Part shown: positions 50,520 through 60,093 of the stretch, piece after piece
Layout of the letters: each line of letters begins with the position of its first letter
Position numbering within the stretch: position 1 is the first letter of the stretch
The notes under the pieces: model-generated
Told to the model about the DNA's origin: nothing
What the model saw: the letters and a program-made list of their open reading frames with translations, nothing else
Database searches by the model: none
Source of the DNA: Ornithinimicrobium cryptoxanthini
Lineage (GTDB): Bacteria > Actinomycetota > Actinomycetes > Actinomycetales > Dermatophilaceae
Reading direction: 5' to 3'
Assembly (NCBI RefSeq): GCF_023923205.1
Contig: NZ_CP099490.1
Span: forward strand, 372,001 to 436,000
DNA length: 64,000 bases
Made by a program: the position numbers and the translations under genes

Positions 50520-50546
50520 TCGGTGGTGTGTGGTTGAGTGTTTGGT

Positions 50547-51953
50547 ATGGCGATCACGGGGACTGGGGTGGGAGTCGGGGAAGCGTTCTCCGGCTCGGGT
50601 TCCCTGACGCCGGAGATGGTCGAGTTGATGTTCGCGCAGTGGGAGCGGGAGCAGGCCAGCGATGACTGGGAGGCCGCGCGGGACGCGGCTCAGTGGCGCG
50701 CGATAGATGAGGCCCTGGCCCAGGAGCAGGTGTCAGGGTGGGCGGCTGAGGAGCTGGCGGGAGGGTTGGTTGCTGCGGGGCGGGGCCTGGACCGGGCGGG
50801 GGTCGACGCGGATGAGCTGGTGCGGGTCTTTGACGCCTCGATGAGCGATGGTCTTGAGGCGGTGGGGCAGTTGCGGGCGAGGTTGGACGGGATTGCTTTC
50901 TCGTTGGCGTTCGAGGCCGCGTCGCGGGGGTTGCACACCGCGGTGGGGCTCTCGTTGGTGGACTGGTTGCGGGTGCGGTGTCCGATGCTCTCGAAGCAGG
51001 AGGCGTGCCAGGTCCAGGACGTGGTCCGCGCCGCGGGACACCATTGGGGTGCGCCGTTGGCTGAGGCGGTCCGCACGGGGACCGGGGCGGTGCACCGGGT
51101 GGCGAAAGTCGCTAGGACGATGCGCCGGCTGGCGGGTTCGTTGGATGTGGATCAGCAGCAGGACTACGCGAAGATCGCCACCGGCGCGGCGACTAACCCG
51201 GGCATCAGTGACCAGGACCTGGATGTGGTGTGCCAGAAGTTGTTGATCGACCTGTTGGATGAGAAGCCGCGTGAGGAGGCCAAGGCCACCGCCCAGGAAC
51301 TGCGGCGGGTCACCTCGCGGCCGCTGGGTCGGGGGATGACCCGGTTCACCGTCGATGCCCCGGAAGGGGATGCGGGGCTCATCGACGGGGTGCTGTGCGG
51401 TCCGTTGGCCGCGCCGACACCGGCTGAGGACGGGACACCGGATGGGCGGATGCCGGGGCAGCGGAAGTATGACGCGTTCTGGTTGACGTTCAACCGTGGC
51501 ACGTCCAACCCTGGTGCCCCGCCCTCGTCGGCGCGGGCGTCGGTGATCGTGACGGTCAAGGCGGACCCGGCGACCGGGCGGCCTGAGGGGGCGGCGGTCA
51601 GCAGCACCGGTGCGGTGATGGACGCGGCCCAGGCGGGACGGTTGGCGTGTGTGGGGGATGTGACCCCGATCGTCCTGGGTGAGCACGGCGAACCCCTCGC
51701 GCTGGGGCGCACGGTGCGGTTGGCGACACCGGGGCAGTTCAAGGCGCTGATGGTCCGTGACGGGCAGTGCACCTATCCGGGGTGTTCGGTGCCCGGGACG
51801 TGGTGCGATTCGCATCACCTGATCTGGTGGTGTCGTGGTGGCGGCACCGACCTCGAACTCTTGGTCTTACTCTGCCCTCGGCATCACACGTTGGTCCACG
51901 ACCAAGACCTGATGGCCACCATCACCGGCTCCGTCGTGACCTGGCACGTGTGA
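50547..51953 (+). CDS. HNH endonuclease-domain protein (DUF222, 13E12 type)
   Basis: A protein of 468 aa. The DUF222 helical domain (about 30-330) is followed by an HNH motif at the C-terminus: RDGQCTYPGC, CDSHHLIWW and LLVLLCPRHHTLVHD, with paired Cys for zinc. This is the REP13E12-like family that occurs in many copies in actinobacterial genomes and behaves like a mobile or decaying repeat. Codon use is distinct from the neighbours, richer in TTG and GGG. ATG 50547 is chosen; a GTG 9 nt upstream is possible. Inserted between the folate operon and nuoD. Confidence 0.88.
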   Translation: MAITGTGVGVGEAFSGSGSLTPEMVELMFAQWEREQASDDWEAARDAAQWRAIDEALAQEQVSGWAAEELAGGLVAAGRGLDRAGVDADELVRVFDASMSDGLEAVGQLRARLDGIAFSLAFEAASRGLHTAVGLSLVDWLRVRCPMLSKQEACQVQDVVRAAGHHWGAPLAEAVRTGTGAVHRVAKVARTMRRLAGSLDVDQQQDYAKIATGAATNPGISDQDLDVVCQKLLIDLLDEKPREEAKATAQELRRVTSRPLGRGMTRFTVDAPEGDAGLIDGVLCGPLAAPTPAEDGTPDGRMPGQRKYDAFWLTFNRGTSNPGAPPSSARASVIVTVKADPATGRPEGAAVSSTGAVMDAAQAGRLACVGDVTPIVLGEHGEPLALGRTVRLATPGQFKALMVRDGQCTYPGCSVPGTWCDSHHLIWWCRGGGTDLELLVLLCPRHHTLVHDQDLMATITGSVVTWHV

Positions 51954-52115: not shown

Positions 52116-53285
52116 CTACTTGTCGATGTCGCCGACGACGAAGAACGTGGACCCGAGGATCGCCACCATGTCGCCGATCAGGGCTCCGGGCAGCAACTCG
52201 GACAGCACCTGGACGTTGTTGAAGGACGCCGACCGCAGCTTCAGCCGCCACGGCACCTTGTCGCCGCGGCTGACCAGGAAGTAGCCGTTGAGCCCGAGCG
52301 GGTTCTCCGTCGCCTGGTAGTGCTCGCCCTCCGGCACCTTGAGCACCTTGGGCAGCTTTACGTCAATCGGGCCGTCCGGCAGTCCGCGCAGCACCTCCGT
52401 GCACCGCTCCGCCAGGTCGAGACTCACCTCCACCTGCTCCAGCAGCACCTCGAGCCGGGCATAGCAGTCGCCGGCGGTGCGGGTGACCACGCGCCCGGGG
52501 CCATCTGGGCCGAAGAGCTCGGCATAGGCGAGGTAGGGCTCGTCGCGCCGCAGGTCGATGTCGAGCCCGGAGGCCCGCGCGATCGGTCCGGACACGCCAT
52601 ACTGCCGCGCCTGTTCGGTGGTCAGCACACCGACGCCCACGGTGCGCCCACGCAGGATCGGGTTGTCGATCAGCATTGCCGCCACGTCTGGCAGCCGCCG
52701 TCGCACTGCCGACACAGCCATGTCGACTCGGTCCAGCCAGCCCTCGGGGATGTCCTCGCGCAGCCCGCCGACCTGCGCGATCATGTAGTGCATCCGGCCG
52801 CCCGAGATCTCCTCCATCACGGCCTGCAGCTCCTCGCGCTCCCGGAACGCATAGAAGATCGGCGTGATCGCGCCCAGCTCGAGCGGGTAGGACCCCAGGA
52901 ACATCAGGTGGTTCAGCGCGCGGTTGAGCTCGGCCAGCAAGGTGCGCGCCCAAGTCGCTCGTTCGGGCACCTCCATGCCCAGCATCGACTCCACGGCCAG
53001 AGCGACGCCGATCTCGTTGCTGAACGCCGACAGCCAGTCGTGCCGGTTGGCCAGCACCATGATCTGTCGATAGTCGCGCACCTCGAAAAGCTTCTCCGCC
53101 CCACGGTGCATGTAGCCCACGATCGGCTCGGCGGCCACGATCCGCTCACCGTCGGCGGTGATGCGCAGACGCAGGACGCCATGGGTTGCCGGGTGCTGTG
53201 GGCCGATGTTGAGCACCATCACGGTGGTGGTCAGCCCAGCAGTCCCCAGCCCGATGTCCAGTTCCCTGTGCGGCACCCGACCCAC
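52116..53285 (-). CDS. nuoD2: NADH-quinone oxidoreductase subunit D-like protein (orphan copy)
   Basis: A protein of 389 aa homologous to the 49-kDa complex I subunit (NuoD/NDUFS2). [23 protein letters not shown] (Arg61), [16 protein letters not shown] and a C-terminal VVGDIDK are in the correct order. It is shorter than typical NuoD (about 440 aa) and has no other nuo genes nearby, matching the second nuoD seen in Streptomyces. It may replace NuoD in a variant complex. Its GTG start comes one base after the stop of the upstream methyltransferase gene, so the two are coupled. Confidence 0.92.
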
Positions 53286-53286
53286 G

Positions 53287-54246
53287 CTAGCCGAGGTCGC
53301 CCGATCGGCGGAGCGTCGTGGCCCACCAGAAGGCGCCGAGTCCCGTCGGTGCGGTCAGCGTCGCCAGTGCGTTGGCACGCTGCAGCTCCAGCAGATAGGC
53401 ACTCGGATCGGCCCGGGCCAGGTCCTGGTCCGGCAGCGGCCGGCGACCCAGCAGGTCGTGCAGGATGTCGCGCTGGCGGACCAGGCGGTCGGCGCCGAGC
53501 GCGTCGACCGCGACGTGTGCCGTCAGGTCGCAGGAACCGTCGGGCACCGGTGGCACGCTCACGCCGTCGCGGTATCCGATGAGCGTTCCCTCCACCGGCC
53601 GGTCATCGCGGGTGTGTCCGTAGTCCACGGCGACCACCAGTCCGCTCAGCACCCGCGAGCAGAGGTCGGCGTATGCCGTGTCCCGGGGGCGGCCGATCTC
53701 GGCCCGGCGCACGTGGTCCGGGACATGGGTGTCGAGCCAGTCCAGGTCGGCTCCCGACACCAGCTCGTCCGCTCGCTCGTCGCCCGTCGCAGGGTCGACC
53801 GTGACATAGCGCCACGGACCGTCAGGGGAGCGCAGAACCACCGGGCAGGGGACGACGTCGAGCCACTCGTGAGCGATGACCAGCACGTCGTCCAGTCCAG
53901 CGAGCTCCGCAGGGAGGCCGAGGCCACCGGGGGAGCGCAGCCAGTCGACACCGTCAGGCAGGTTGCTCGGACGGTCCACCACGTCGACGCCCCGCAGCGT
54001 CCGAGTGCGGTCAATGCTGTGCAACTCTCGCAGGAGCTCGCCGCGGCCCGCACCGATCTCCACGATGGTGCTCAGCCCATGTCGATCGGCCAGCGCCACG
54101 ACTGCCTGGGCAAGGACCTGCCCGGTCCCTGGGATCCCCTGGGCAGAGGTCGAGAAGTGTCCGGCTGGTCCCTCGGCACGCCGATAGAAGCCTTCAACGC
54201 CATAGAGCGCCTCCTGCCAGGCGGCCTGCCACGAGGTCCACGTCAC
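53287..54246 (-). CDS. MidA/NDUFAF7-like SAM-dependent methyltransferase
   Basis: A protein of 319 aa. It carries the family landmarks [35 protein letters not shown] (SAM motif I), [12 protein letters not shown] (the conserved Glu-Asp region), [13 protein letters not shown] and [18 protein letters not shown]7, the mitochondrial member, dimethylates an arginine of NDUFS2, the NuoD homologue, and is required for complex I assembly. Here the gene lies directly upstream of nuoD in one transcript with a 1-bp gap. GTG 54246 is chosen. The family call is from remembered signatures and is fairly secure. Confidence 0.82.
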
Positions 54247-54282: not shown

Positions 54283-54390
54283 CGGGAGAGTGACGCTGCG
54301 CTGGGCCGGGGCAGGAGGCATGGTGGACCTGTGCGCGAACACTTACAGGTGGGAGTCTCACCTGCCACCGACCCATCAGGAGACAACCGC

Positions 54391-54918
54391 ATGAGCGCTC
54401 CAGTGACAGGTGGGAGCGCCCACAGCACGACCGAGAGCCCGATTGGCACCCTCACGCTCGTGACGGACGGGGATGCGCTGACCGGCCTCTACATGGAGAG
54501 CCACCGGCACGCGCCCGACCCGCAGTCGTGGGGGCCGTCGCGGGCCCCCGCTGAGTCGGCGCCGGTGGTCCGCGCTGCGATCAGCCAGCTGTCGGCATAC
54601 TTCAGGGGCGAGCTCACGCACTTCGACCTCGCGCTGGCACCCAGCGGGACGCTATTCCAGAAGCAGGTCTGGGAGCAGCTGCTGCGGATCCCCTATGGCG
54701 AGACCGCCAGTTATGGAGAGCTGGCCGCGCTGCTCGGCAACCCGGGTGCCTCACGTGCGGTCGGGCTGGCCAACGGGCGCAACCCGATCTCGATCATCGT
54801 GCCGTGCCACCGCGTCGTCGGCGCGGCGGGTCAGCTGACGGGGTATGGCGGGGGCCTGGAGCGCAAGCAGGTCCTGTTGGCGCTGGAGCAGCGGGTCGCG
54901 GGCCACTCGCTGTGGTGA
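54391..54918 (+). CDS. ogt: Methylated-DNA--protein-cysteine methyltransferase
   Basis: A protein of 175 aa that removes methyl groups from O6-methylguanine by suicide transfer to Cys. The C-terminal domain has FQKQVWEQLLRIPYGETASYGELA, in two adjoining parts, SRAVGLANGRNP and the active site IVPCHRVVG. ATG 54391 has AGGAGA upstream. A dyad CAGGTG...CACCTG at 54346-54364 lies before it and may be regulatory. Confidence 0.94.
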   Translation: MSAPVTGGSAHSTTESPIGTLTLVTDGDALTGLYMESHRHAPDPQSWGPSRAPAESAPVVRAAISQLSAYFRGELTHFDLALAPSGTLFQKQVWEQLLRIPYGETASYGELAALLGNPGASRAVGLANGRNPISIIVPCHRVVGAAGQLTGYGGGLERKQVLLALEQRVAGHSLW

Positions 54919-57236: not shown

Positions 57237-58097
57237 TCACACGAACGCGTCGAAACGGACCTGGGTCAGCGCCGCTGTGCCGTCGGCGGCCGTCGTGATC
57301 TCGTCCCAGCTCCGCGGTGTCGCGACCTGGGGACGGTCCCGGCCCCGCATCGACCAGGGGCAGATCGTTGTCTTGGCCGCGTTGTTCTGCGACCAGTCGA
57401 GGAACACCTTGCCGGCCCGCCGGGCCTTGGTCATCTGCCACAGGACCAGGTCGGGGTGCTGCTCGGTGAGTTGTTGAGCCAGGGCCTTGGTCACGGCGCT
57501 GACCTCGTCGGAGGTCCGCTCACCGTCGAGCGCGGCATACAGCTGCATGCCCTTGCTGCCGCTGGTGACCGGCTCGCACTCCAGGCCGACGTCGGCCAGG
57601 CGGTTGCTGACGAGCACGGCCACCCGGGCGCACTCGGTCAGGCCCGCGCCCGGGCCCGGGTCCAGGTCGATGACCAGACGATCTGGCGGCTGGGGCACCC
57701 CGTCCTTGTCGACCCGCCACTGCGGCACGTGCAGCTCGAGTGATCCGAGGTTGACCAGATAGACCAGGCCAGCCAGGTCCTCCACCAAGGGATAGGTCAC
57801 CGTGGTCCCACCGGAGCGCGACCCGTGCCCGGACAGGGTGACCCGGGGCAGCCAGTCCGGCACCCCGCTGGGGACGTTCTTCTCAAAGAAGCTCTCGCGC
57901 GCGACGCCGTGTGGCCACCGCACCCGCGTCACCGGACGCCCCGCCAGTCGGGGCAGTAGCCGGTCCGCGATCTGCACGTAGTAGTTGAGCACCTCGCCCT
58001 TGGTCGTCCCCGTCTCGGGATAGAGGACCTTGTCGAGGCTGCTGACCCTCAGCGTCCGCCCCGCCACGTGCACGCTCTGCGACTCTCCAGCAGCCAT
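57237..58097 (-). CDS. ligD: LigD-type primase-polymerase domain protein
   Basis: A stand-alone NHEJ polymerase of 286 aa in the archaeo-eukaryotic primase family. It has LDKVLYPETGTTKGEVLNYY, ELHVPQWRVD, the catalytic LVIDLDPGPG (two metal-binding Asp), GSKGMQLYA and the terminal PQVATPRSWDEI. It fills gaps with ribonucleotides during end joining. The ligase is encoded separately upstream with a 1-nt stop/start overlap (TGATG), and no phosphoesterase domain is found in either, so LigD is split here. Confidence 0.93.
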   Translation of the reverse strand: MAAGESQSVHVAGRTLRVSSLDKVLYPETGTTKGEVLNYYVQIADRLLPRLAGRPVTRVRWPHGVARESFFEKNVPSGVPDWLPRVTLSGHGSRSGGTTVTYPLVEDLAGLVYLVNLGSLELHVPQWRVDKDGVPQPPDRLVIDLDPGPGAGLTECARVAVLVSNRLADVGLECEPVTSGSKGMQLYAALDGERTSDEVSAVTKALAQQLTEQHPDLVLWQMTKARRAGKVFLDWSQNNAAKTTICPWSMRGRDRPQVATPRSWDEITTAADGTAALTQVRFDAFV

Positions 58098-59047
58098 CAG
58101 CGATCCTCTCCGACCAGGTCATCCGGCGTCAGGTCACCGCGCCAGCTCTTGAAGGCGGGCTGGCGCAACCGACCTGCCGAGGTGGTGCCCAGCGCCGCGA
58201 TGTCGACGACCAGCTCCGGGGCGAGCCACGTCGCGCCGGCCCGGTCCACCCGCGGGACCTCGTCGGCGAAGGGGCACTCACCCTCGGGCACCTTCGCGAT
58301 CAGCTCAGCCAGACGACTGCCCGCCCGACCCGCCAGCCCGCTGCCGACGCGACCGCGATAGCTCAAACCTTCTGCCGTTGGCACTCCGACCAGGAGCGAC
58401 CCCAACTTGGCCCGGCCGGTCTCCGGACGCCACCCGCCCACGACGAAGCTCTCGGTGCCGCGGTGCGGGAACTTCAGCCAGTCCTGACTGCGCACCCCGG
58501 GCTGATAGGTGCTGGACACCCGCTTGCTGACGATGCCCTCGAGTCCCTGCTCAGCGGTGGCACGCCACAGGCCCGTCCCATCGGCATACTGCGGTGAGAC
58601 CTGCCACCGGGCGCGCTCCGGCACGATCTGCTCCAGGGCCTCCCTGCGAGCCGACCACGGGAGCGGTGCGAGATCAAGTCCGTCGACGCCGACCAGGTCA
58701 AAGATCACGTATGTCGTGGGGCGGGTGGATGCCAGCAGTCGCCCCTTGGCTGCGGAGGTGGTGTGGACCCGTTCGACCAGCTGGCTGAAGGAGGGGGCGC
58801 CGTCGACGAAGGTCACGGCCTCCCCGTCGAGGAGCAGGTCATGACCGAGGTCGGCCAGACCCTCCAGCTCAGGGAAGGCCACCGTCACATCGCGCTCGCT
58901 GCGGGTGGTCAGTCGCAGCACGCCATCTTGGACGTGGGCCAGCAGTCGGATGCCGTCCCACTTGAGCTCGTGCGCCCAGCCGTCACCCTCGGGAATCCCG
59001 GGGCCGTGCCCTGTGGGCCGGCCCGGAGTGGCGAGCATGGGTCTCAT
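58097..59047 (-). CDS. ATP-dependent DNA ligase, LigD-type
   Basis: A protein of 316 aa. Nucleotidyltransferase motif I is ELKWDGIR (adenylated Lys29), motif III is LLLDGEAV, motif IV is LEGIVSKR and motif V is DWLKFP. The OB domain follows (VGGWRPETGRAKLGSLLVG). It seals double-strand breaks held by Ku. ATG 59047 faces the ku start across only 17 bp. It is co-translated with the polymerase gene. Confidence 0.93.
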   Translation of the reverse strand: MRPMLATPGRPTGHGPGIPEGDGWAHELKWDGIRLLAHVQDGVLRLTTRSERDVTVAFPELEGLADLGHDLLLDGEAVTFVDGAPSFSQLVERVHTTSAAKGRLLASTRPTTYVIFDLVGVDGLDLAPLPWSARREALEQIVPERARWQVSPQYADGTGLWRATAEQGLEGIVSKRVSSTYQPGVRSQDWLKFPHRGTESFVVGGWRPETGRAKLGSLLVGVPTAEGLSYRGRVGSGLAGRAGSRLAELIAKVPEGECPFADEVPRVDRAGATWLAPELVVDIAALGTTSAGRLRQPAFKSWRGDLTPDDLVGEDR

Positions 59048-59052
59048 GGGTC

Positions 59053-59059
59053 CATCCTG
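59053..59059. promoter_or_regulatory. Overlapping -10 hexamers of the divergent ku/ligase promoter
   Basis: The heptamer CATCCTG reads CATCCT on the plus strand (59053-59058), exactly 6 nt before GTG 59065 of ku. On the minus strand it reads CAGGAT (59059-59054), exactly 6 nt before ATG 59047 of the ligase. Both keep A at -11 and T at -7. The geometry predicts two leaderless transcripts from one bidirectional promoter. Confidence 0.5.
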
Positions 59060-59064
59060 TAACA

Positions 59065-60093
59065 GTGAGAGCGATTTGGAAGGGCGCGGTGTCGTTCGGG
59101 CTGGTCAATGTCCCGGTGCGGCTCTACTCGGCCACGGAGAACCACGACCTGAGCTTCCACCAGGTGCGCAGGTCCGACGGCAGCCGCATCCGTTACAAGC
59201 GGGTCGCGCAGACGGACGGGGAGGAAGTTCCCTACAAGGAGATCGCCAAGGCTTATCAGACCGAGGACGGCAAGTCCGTCATCCTCACCGACGAGGACTT
59301 CGAGTCCCTTCCCAACCGCTCCAGCAAGGAGATCGCGGTCGAGAAGTTCGTGCCGATCGAACAGATCGACCCGATCCTCTACGACAAGCCCTACTACATC
59401 GAGCCGGACGGCATGGGCGCCAAGGCCTACGGGCTGCTCCGGGAGGCGCTGCGCGAGAGCGAGCGCGTGGCGGTCGTCACCGTGTCGGTGCGGACCCGGA
59501 TGACGATGGCTGTGCTCCGGGTCATCGATGACGTGATCGTCCTGCAGACCCTCCTGTGGCCCGATGAGGTGCGCGACTCGGGGGCGCTCAACAACCTCGA
59601 CGAGGTCTCCAACCCCAAGGACTCAGAGGTCGCGATGGCCCGGATGCTCATCGACTCGATGGCTGGTGACTTTGAGCTCGAGGAGCACGAGGACGACTAC
59701 CAGATCGCGGTCGAGGCGCTCGTGAAGTCCAAGATCGAGGGCGGCGACGTCACCGAGTCCCCGGACCAGGCCGACGAGGAGGAGTCCGGCGAGGTCGTCG
59801 ACCTGCTCGCAGCCCTGCAGCGCAGCGTCGACCGGGCCAAGGCCTCACGCGGGGAGGACCCCGAGGAGACGACAAGCTCCGCGCCGCGCACATCGGCAGC
59901 CAAGAAGTCGACCTCCAAGAAGTCGGCGACCCAGAAGTCGACCGCGCAGAAGTCTGCAGGCACCAAGAGCGCCGCCAAGAAGAGCGCGGACACCAAGAGC
60001 GCCACCAAGAAGACCACGGCCAAGAAGACGACGGCCAAGAACACCACCGCTAAGAAGTCGTCGAGCGGGAGCAGCGACAAGAAGGCTGGGTGA
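59065..60093 (+). CDS. ku: Ku protein of non-homologous end joining
   Basis: A protein of 342 aa. The core (about 1-255) forms the homodimeric DNA-end ring: AIWKGAVSFGLVNVPVRLYSA, in two adjoining parts, opens it, then RIRYKRVAQTDGEEV and KPYYIEPDG. From about 275 a lysine-rich tail of KKST/TKSA/TTAKK repeats continues to the end, as in mycobacterial and Streptomyces Ku, where it strengthens DNA binding and lets Ku slide or recruit ligase. Divergent from the ligase-polymerase pair. Confidence 0.96.
   Translation: MRAIWKGAVSFGLVNVPVRLYSATENHDLSFHQVRRSDGSRIRYKRVAQTDGEEVPYKEIAKAYQTEDGKSVILTDEDFESLPNRSSKEIAVEKFVPIEQIDPILYDKPYYIEPDGMGAKAYGLLREALRESERVAVVTVSVRTRMTMAVLRVIDDVIVLQTLLWPDEVRDSGALNNLDEVSNPKDSEVAMARMLIDSMAGDFELEEHEDDYQIAVEALVKSKIEGGDVTESPDQADEEESGEVVDLLAALQRSVDRAKASRGEDPEETTSSAPRTSAAKKSTSKKSATQKSTAQKSAGTKSAAKKSADTKSATKKTTAKKTTAKNTTAKKSSSGSSDKKAG

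Follow-up and report, generated by a model that had tools for sequence, protein, structure and literature searches.

We believe the gene pair analysed here encodes NuoD2, the D subunit of a second complex-I-like enzyme, together with a dedicated MidA-type arginine methyltransferase. Taken as a whole, with the docking and donor scheme that we attach to it, this reading is probably right. NuoD2 would be the subunit on the cluster N2 side of the second enzyme. MidA would dimethylate Arg61 on freshly synthesized NuoD2, either ahead of docking on NuoB2 or during it, and the methyl-arginine would pack beside cluster N2 in a mitochondria-like way. Electrons would be supplied by a donor of low potential, most likely ferredoxin that the 2-oxoglutarate oxidoreductase KorAB, encoded nearby, has reduced, and would reach N2 by way of the two NuoI2 4Fe-4S clusters. 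Entry through NuoI2 is expected because nuo2 encodes no NADH module. The final acceptor is probably bound unlike in ordinary complex I, since the quinone-ligating Tyr is replaced by Trp in every NuoD2 read.

Features of the nuoD2-midA pair; positions are those of the window, the whole stretch of 64,000 nucleotides that was analysed
Feature	Position	Strand	Remarks
nuoD2	52116-53285	-	GTG start, 389 aa; Pfam PF00346 Complex1_49kDa 6e-70
Arg61 codon of HRGAEK/MHRGAEKL	53105-53103	-	equivalent of human NDUFS2 Arg85; predicted methylation site
Trp84 codon	53034-53036	-	aligns with quinone-ligating Tyr87 of T. thermophilus Nqo4 (PDB alignment)
loop LELGAIT, residues 135-141	52863-52883	-	retained with full nuo2, missing with BCI-only nuo2
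midA-like SAM-dependent methyltransferase	53287-54246	-	PF02636 50.1 bits; fold match to COG1565/MidA structures

The coordinates bear out the initial annotation, which had midA ending one base ahead of nuoD2: a single base separates the TAG stop (53289-53287) from the GTG at 53285. The codon for Arg61 in MHRGAEKL also reads as claimed. The longest midA ORF starts at 54342; alignment with homologues makes the GTG at 54246 the likely start. That longest ORF overlaps by 12 bases a divergent O6-methylguanine-DNA methyltransferase gene (54331-54918). Between the fol operon and nuoD2 lies a DUF222 protein with a weak HNH endonuclease match (50538-51953), and LigD polymerase-like, DNA ligase-like and Ku-like ORFs at 57237-60093 form, by eye, a non-homologous end-joining set.

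The close coupling of the two genes proposed at first holds in some lineages and not in general, the pair being neither always adjacent nor always co-directional. The genes are convergent in several genomes of family f20, and in one genome (G226) they lie 39 kb apart on one contig, the sole clear separation among the pairs whose coordinates were compared. G276 was rejected as an unlinked case: both of its genes lie near contig ends. nuoD2 and midA share one conserved neighbourhood, whose genes are by eye fol, ftsH, lysS and others. Joint loss of the two could for that reason be a single deletion.

Both proteins belong where the initial annotation put them. The methyltransferase passes the 23.3-bit cut-off of Pfam Methyltransf_28 (PF02636, the MidA/NDUFAF7 family) with 50.1 bits, and its predicted fold agrees. 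A sequence search of the PDB gives 1zkd and 4f3n, solved COG1565 proteins, and the model (pLDDT 95) matches the COG1565 entries 4g67 (5.8e-18) and 4f3n as well as the MidA entries 5ztz (2.1e-15) and 5zu0. The alignment contains a glycine-rich motif, which we take to be an element of the SAM-binding domain. In 1zkd and 4f3n an Asn precedes the Glu of the 'NE..D' motif; most of the 17 aligned proteins have His, Thr or Trp there instead. A PF02636 search finds a single such gene in the genome. NuoD2 is a member of the 49-kDa/NuoD family by full-length NuoD alignment and by the Complex1_49kDa profile. It scores 374.4 bits against the NuoD equivalog TIGR01962, under the 459.35 cut-off, and 364.2 bits against NF004739, over the cut-off of 360. 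The main NuoD of the same genome (NuoD1) is just 38% identical to it.

What does NuoD2 belong to? The initial annotation called it an orphan, and this reading was rejected after a search for NuoB led to a second copy in the same genome. That copy is the second gene of an operon, nuo2, which occupies 699,098-708,231 on the contig that also carries the nuoD2-midA pair, roughly 273 kb away from it. Its order is A2 B2 C2 H2 I2 J2 K2 L2 M2 N2, and the operon as read contains no D, E, F or G. Nine of its proteins are confirmed by Pfam, with complex I domains in A2, B2, C2 (PF00329), H2, J2, K2, L2 and N2 and 4Fe-4S domains in I2; M2 is assigned from its homology to the main NuoM and from its position. 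None of the nuo2 loci read in other genomes has a D, and E, F and G are likewise missing from the nuo2 loci read. Counting the unlinked NuoD2, the genome encodes an 11-subunit set of A, B, C, D and H-N. The gene is thus stand-alone in its position and in no other sense, since ten other nuo2 genes lie elsewhere in the genome. Most likely, on this comparative evidence, NuoD2 is the D subunit of the nuo2 enzyme, encoded unlinked. The initial suggestion of a variant complex I survives in this form.

Co-occurrence supports that assignment. We surveyed 196 Actinomycetes genomes, evenly drawn and including our own, and called NuoD2 (E <= 3.4e-76) in 80 of them. NuoD2 and NuoB2 occur together in 79 genomes, NuoD2 alone in 1, NuoB2 alone in 1 (G004, a draft) and neither in 115. 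NuoB2 scored at least 186 bits in 55 genomes; in 25 it was a weaker second match, whose operon context was checked where fetched, and in G005, G044 and G029 it is a fragment at a contig edge. A second NuoB match in eleven of the genomes without NuoD2 was counted as not NuoB2: G003, which has a second nuo1-type operon, and ten at 57-78 bits (G009, G031, G070, G098, G115, G129, G133, G149, G180, G184). The loci read among these eleven are those of G003, G098, G129 and G180. One genome, G169, has NuoD2 and MidA with no NuoB2 found in its 94% complete draft; this may be a gap or a real exception.

MidA follows NuoD2 almost as closely. Across the 196 genomes the two occur together in 73, NuoD2 alone in 7, MidA alone in 1 and neither in 115, and a contig-edge fragment in G018 changes the first two figures to 74 and 6. 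PF02636 finds MidA in 71 genomes, 70 of them with NuoD2; a family-specific profile applied at the locus added G111, G113 and G169. For the 116 genomes without NuoD2 the search for MidA relied on PF02636 alone; this profile misses 4 of the 74 known, so a diverged MidA could escape it there. Six genomes with NuoD2 (G100, G110, G120, G138, G156, G182) have no MidA by PF02636 genome-wide or by the specific profile at the NuoD2 locus. In the single genome with MidA only, G059, the contig ends 1.4 kb past the gene. A survey of 148 genomes of the same family gives 126 with both genes, 2 with NuoD2 alone, 2 with MidA alone and 18 with neither. No MidA was found in the first two (G229, G237) by an alignment-based genome-wide search; the MidA-only genomes (G274, G325) are fragmented drafts and both have NuoB2. 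The Fisher values for these co-occurrences are tiny, and they ignore relatedness. The pairing is not due to chance, because 74 of the 80 genomes with NuoD2 have MidA and 1 of the 116 without it does. Linkage and co-occurrence are thus kept across relatives, as the initial annotation proposed to check.

The residues beside cluster N2 polarize the question of which enzyme NuoD2 serves. In our alignment of 134 NuoD2 and 25 NuoD1 sequences (hydrogenase-like rows G129 and G174 were dropped from 136, and G098 and G180 from 27) the target arginine is present in 134/134 NuoD2, and all 25 NuoD1 have Thr. The NuoB1 partners of these Thr-bearing NuoD1 have Arg in 25/25, and NuoB2 has Thr in all 37 partners readable at the site; G029 is cut off there, and the NuoB2 sequences of the others were not fetched. 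It is important to realize that 80 of the 134 are best-scoring relatives, hence close kin; named genera among these best 80 of at least 583 include Ornithinimicrobium, Janibacter, Streptosporangium, Nonomuraea and Kribbella. The same exchange is known between species as an intersubunit arginine switch: in T. thermophilus the NuoD residue is Thr, and a NuoB Arg (Nqo6 R83) occupies the room that the NuoD Arg would take, and in Yarrowia the two are reversed (PMC8042128; here and below, published systems are described from portions of the papers cited). Judged by alignment, then, NuoD2/NuoB2 is in the Arg/Thr, or mitochondrial, state and the main NuoD1/NuoB1 is in the Thr/Arg state, both within one cell. 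Each D suits its own B because the states match in this way. In the 22 genomes where both D subunits were read, NuoD2 is the sole NuoD modifiable at this site, since NuoD1 has no Arg.

This argues against NuoD2 being an alternative D that takes the place of NuoD1 in the main complex I of 14 subunits, with MidA marking the variant. Most NuoD2 genomes do have further NuoD matches (the main NuoD usually gives two), and no second membrane arm was found in the reduced nuo2 loci described below, both of which such a replacement would suit. However, NuoB1 has its Arg (25/25) where the Arg of NuoD2 would have to sit, NuoB2 accompanies NuoD2 in 79 of 80 genomes, and more than 100 genomes with a main NuoD have no NuoD2. 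Two genomes of genus g4, G111 and G243, have NuoD2 and no nuo1: searches for NuoB, NuoD and NuoH find one NuoH, one NuoB and no NuoD1, and nuo2 with NuoD2 and MidA is their only complex I. The idea of a spare part for nuo1 was rejected on the arginine switch and these two genomes, and we regard a replacement D as very unlikely.

Is MidA, then, the enzyme that acts on NuoD2? Across the genomes read, MidA tracks the arginine state of NuoD. Where MidA was seen at the locus, the motif HRGxEK is found in 116/116 NuoD2, a set with many close relatives. In genomes without MidA it is found in 3 of 8 NuoD2, the others reading HRSAEK (three times), HRSDEK and HRGVDK. Two further sets fall outside these groups: 18 NuoD2 whose fetched stretch shows no MidA, all of them with HRGxEK, and 3 whose MidA is partial or decayed, of which two have HRGxEK and one (G147, decayed) has HRSAER. 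Loss of MidA and change of the motif give 2 supported independent contrasts (6 on all branches), too few for a test, with G147 excluded. The conserved arginine offered as evidence in the initial annotation is confirmed as a fact and is weak on its own, being kept in 8/8 NuoD2 without MidA and also in E. coli, whose Arg carries no modification (PMC3750175). The Arg evidently needs no MidA, because all eight retain it.

It could be argued from this retention that MidA and NuoD2 are mere genomic neighbours, with MidA acting on some other substrate. Both do sit in one conserved neighbourhood, and the MidA of Wolbachia has been proposed to methylate DNA (PMC12455994). On the other side, PF02636 finds MidA in just 1 of the 116 genomes without NuoD2, the full motif is in 116/116 with MidA versus 3/8 without, and both genes are retained despite varying orientation and spacing. 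We think the neighbours-only view unlikely, if less so than a replacement D. The idea of MidA and NuoD2 as enzyme and substrate is well supported by comparative evidence, and MidA probably modifies Arg61 of NuoD2, presumably by methylation.

The nuo2 locus comes in two forms, a full form with nuoH2 after nuoC2 and a BCI-only form, B2-C2-I2, with no space for H2 between C2 and I2. The full form was read in 18 genomes. In G007, G010, G029, G082 and G113 the end of a contig or of the stretch read truncates it, and in G139 and G082 no A2 was detected in the loci read. The BCI-only form was found in 28 genomes across several families, with C2 not detected in the locus of G100. Four loci deserve mention in their own right. 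G026 (L080 9544-11849) is intermediate: its nuoH2 is broken into several tblastn pieces, the stretch read shows no J-N, and the locus looks like a full operon in decay. G278 (L246 11868-13291) is BCI-only and G157 (L078) full, and they are coded as one genus, which means transfer or recent reduction. In G082 (L128 2191-9214) nuoB2 and nuoC2 are about 5 kb apart, the operon being interrupted.

The quinone site of NuoD2 differs from that of the main enzyme in both forms. Where NuoD1 has the quinone-ligating Tyr (25/25), NuoD2 has Trp (134/134); the one miss to the search pattern is most likely G048, which reads NRFDW. The other ligand, His38 in T. thermophilus numbering, has an equivalent in our NuoD2 (His35) and is lost in some BCI-only NuoD2. 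The loop LELGAIT presumably lines the quinone cavity. Its pattern, [ED][LIVM]G[AG]x[TS], is present in 18/18 NuoD2 of the full form and 0/27 of the BCI-only genomes with a NuoD2 sequence. The predicted model of a BCI-type NuoD2 retains the NuoD fold. Repeated loss of membrane arm and loop was rejected as an explanation: both change once on the NuoD2 tree, a quick tree with long branches. As that tree stands, the association counts as a single contrast; alternatively there are two subfamilies, with transfer or differential loss.

The BCI-only form could be a functionless relic in decay, given the lost loop, the His38 lost in some, the long branches, the broken nuoH2 and missing J-N of G026 and the undetected C2 of G100. 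Against decay, NuoI2 (best copy) keeps its 8-Cys pattern in 28/28 BCI-only genomes, all four Cys of NuoB2 are present in these genomes too, 23 by pattern and the other 5 by eye, Arg and Trp are invariant in the NuoD2 read, and the B2-C2-I2 trio is retained across several families. We give the relic little credence. A possible role, which we put forward tentatively and at somewhat less than even chances, is that across many actinobacterial lineages the quinone module has separated from its membrane arm, and that NuoB2-C2-I2 and NuoD2, methylated by MidA where it is present, form a soluble Fe-S wire from a 2-oxoglutarate oxidoreductase to a non-quinone acceptor, with the methyl-Arg tuning N2. 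The form would point to a membrane-free complex I quinone module. Searches of the open-licence literature that were not aimed at the BCI-only form alone found no report of it.

The candidate for the oxidoreductase is Kor. Of the 80 genomes, 53 have KorA no more than 10 kb from NuoB2 and 27 have it no more than 1 kb away; these are lower bounds from hand-entered coordinates, since genes on other contigs count as misses. korAB and nuo2 are divergent in the loci where both were read, and korAB is close in 15 of the 28 BCI-only genomes, with fragments only in G173. Kor is found in 157/196 genomes, including many without nuo2, and at least seven genomes with NuoD2 have no Kor match (G111, G056, G100, G110, G120, G147, G165), so an obligatory partnership was rejected. 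Proximity is circumstantial, and we consider Kor a likely but non-obligatory donor to nuo2.

How does this compare with what is known? The claim of the initial annotation that no such pairing had been described in bacteria needs qualification. Nqo4 of Paracoccus denitrificans carries a symmetric dimethyl-Arg65 (PMC3750175), and action of alphaproteobacterial MidA on NuoD has been proposed in work cited by PMC9006661. For Actinobacteria the claim stands as far as the open-licence literature goes, in which we found no report of a MidA-NuoD pairing or of a switch within one cell. The likeness to Paracoccus is a bacterial NuoD methylated at the equivalent Arg; the difference is that its complex I is alphaproteobacterial, and a second NuoD goes unmentioned in the portion of that paper used here. 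In mitochondrial complex I, NDUFAF7 (MidA) methylates Arg85 of NDUFS2 (PMC3829151). That system has in common with ours the methyltransferase family, the Arg of NuoD within HRGxEK and a NuoB partner in the Thr state, given for Yarrowia (PMC8042128). Here, in contrast, the predicted enzyme goes with a second NuoD, the main NuoD has Thr and NuoD2 is without the quinone Tyr.

The second operon is not new in itself. A nuo2 with nuoD2 elsewhere has been published for Streptomyces (PMC3765725, PMC8388888), and a third paper describes its function as unclear and lists C, D, E, F, G and L as missing (PMC9239103). All three resemble our case in a second nuo operon with D encoded elsewhere, but the portions of them used here mention neither a methyltransferase nor an arginine switch, and our genome does have C2 (PF00329) and L2. 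The nuo2 of Streptomyces and relatives would thus gain a probable assembly factor, MidA, and a candidate electron donor. The 11-subunit complex I of Desulfitobacterium, without NuoEFG, has the same set (A B C D H I J K L M N) and a proposed ferredoxin-type donor; its nuoD is inside one operon, whereas here D is unlinked and with MidA (PMC11238625). A further parallel is the switch between Thr/Arg and Arg/Thr in NuoD/NuoB by N2 (PMC8042128). T. thermophilus and Y. lipolytica differ in it as species, and here both states are found in one genome, in two complexes. This is a natural control within the cell, a Thr/Arg complex I without need of a methylase beside an Arg/Thr one accompanied by MidA. 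Deletion of midA should affect only the second enzyme because the Arg/Thr state is there alone, and the comparison bears on why mitochondria methylate an Arg beside cluster N2.
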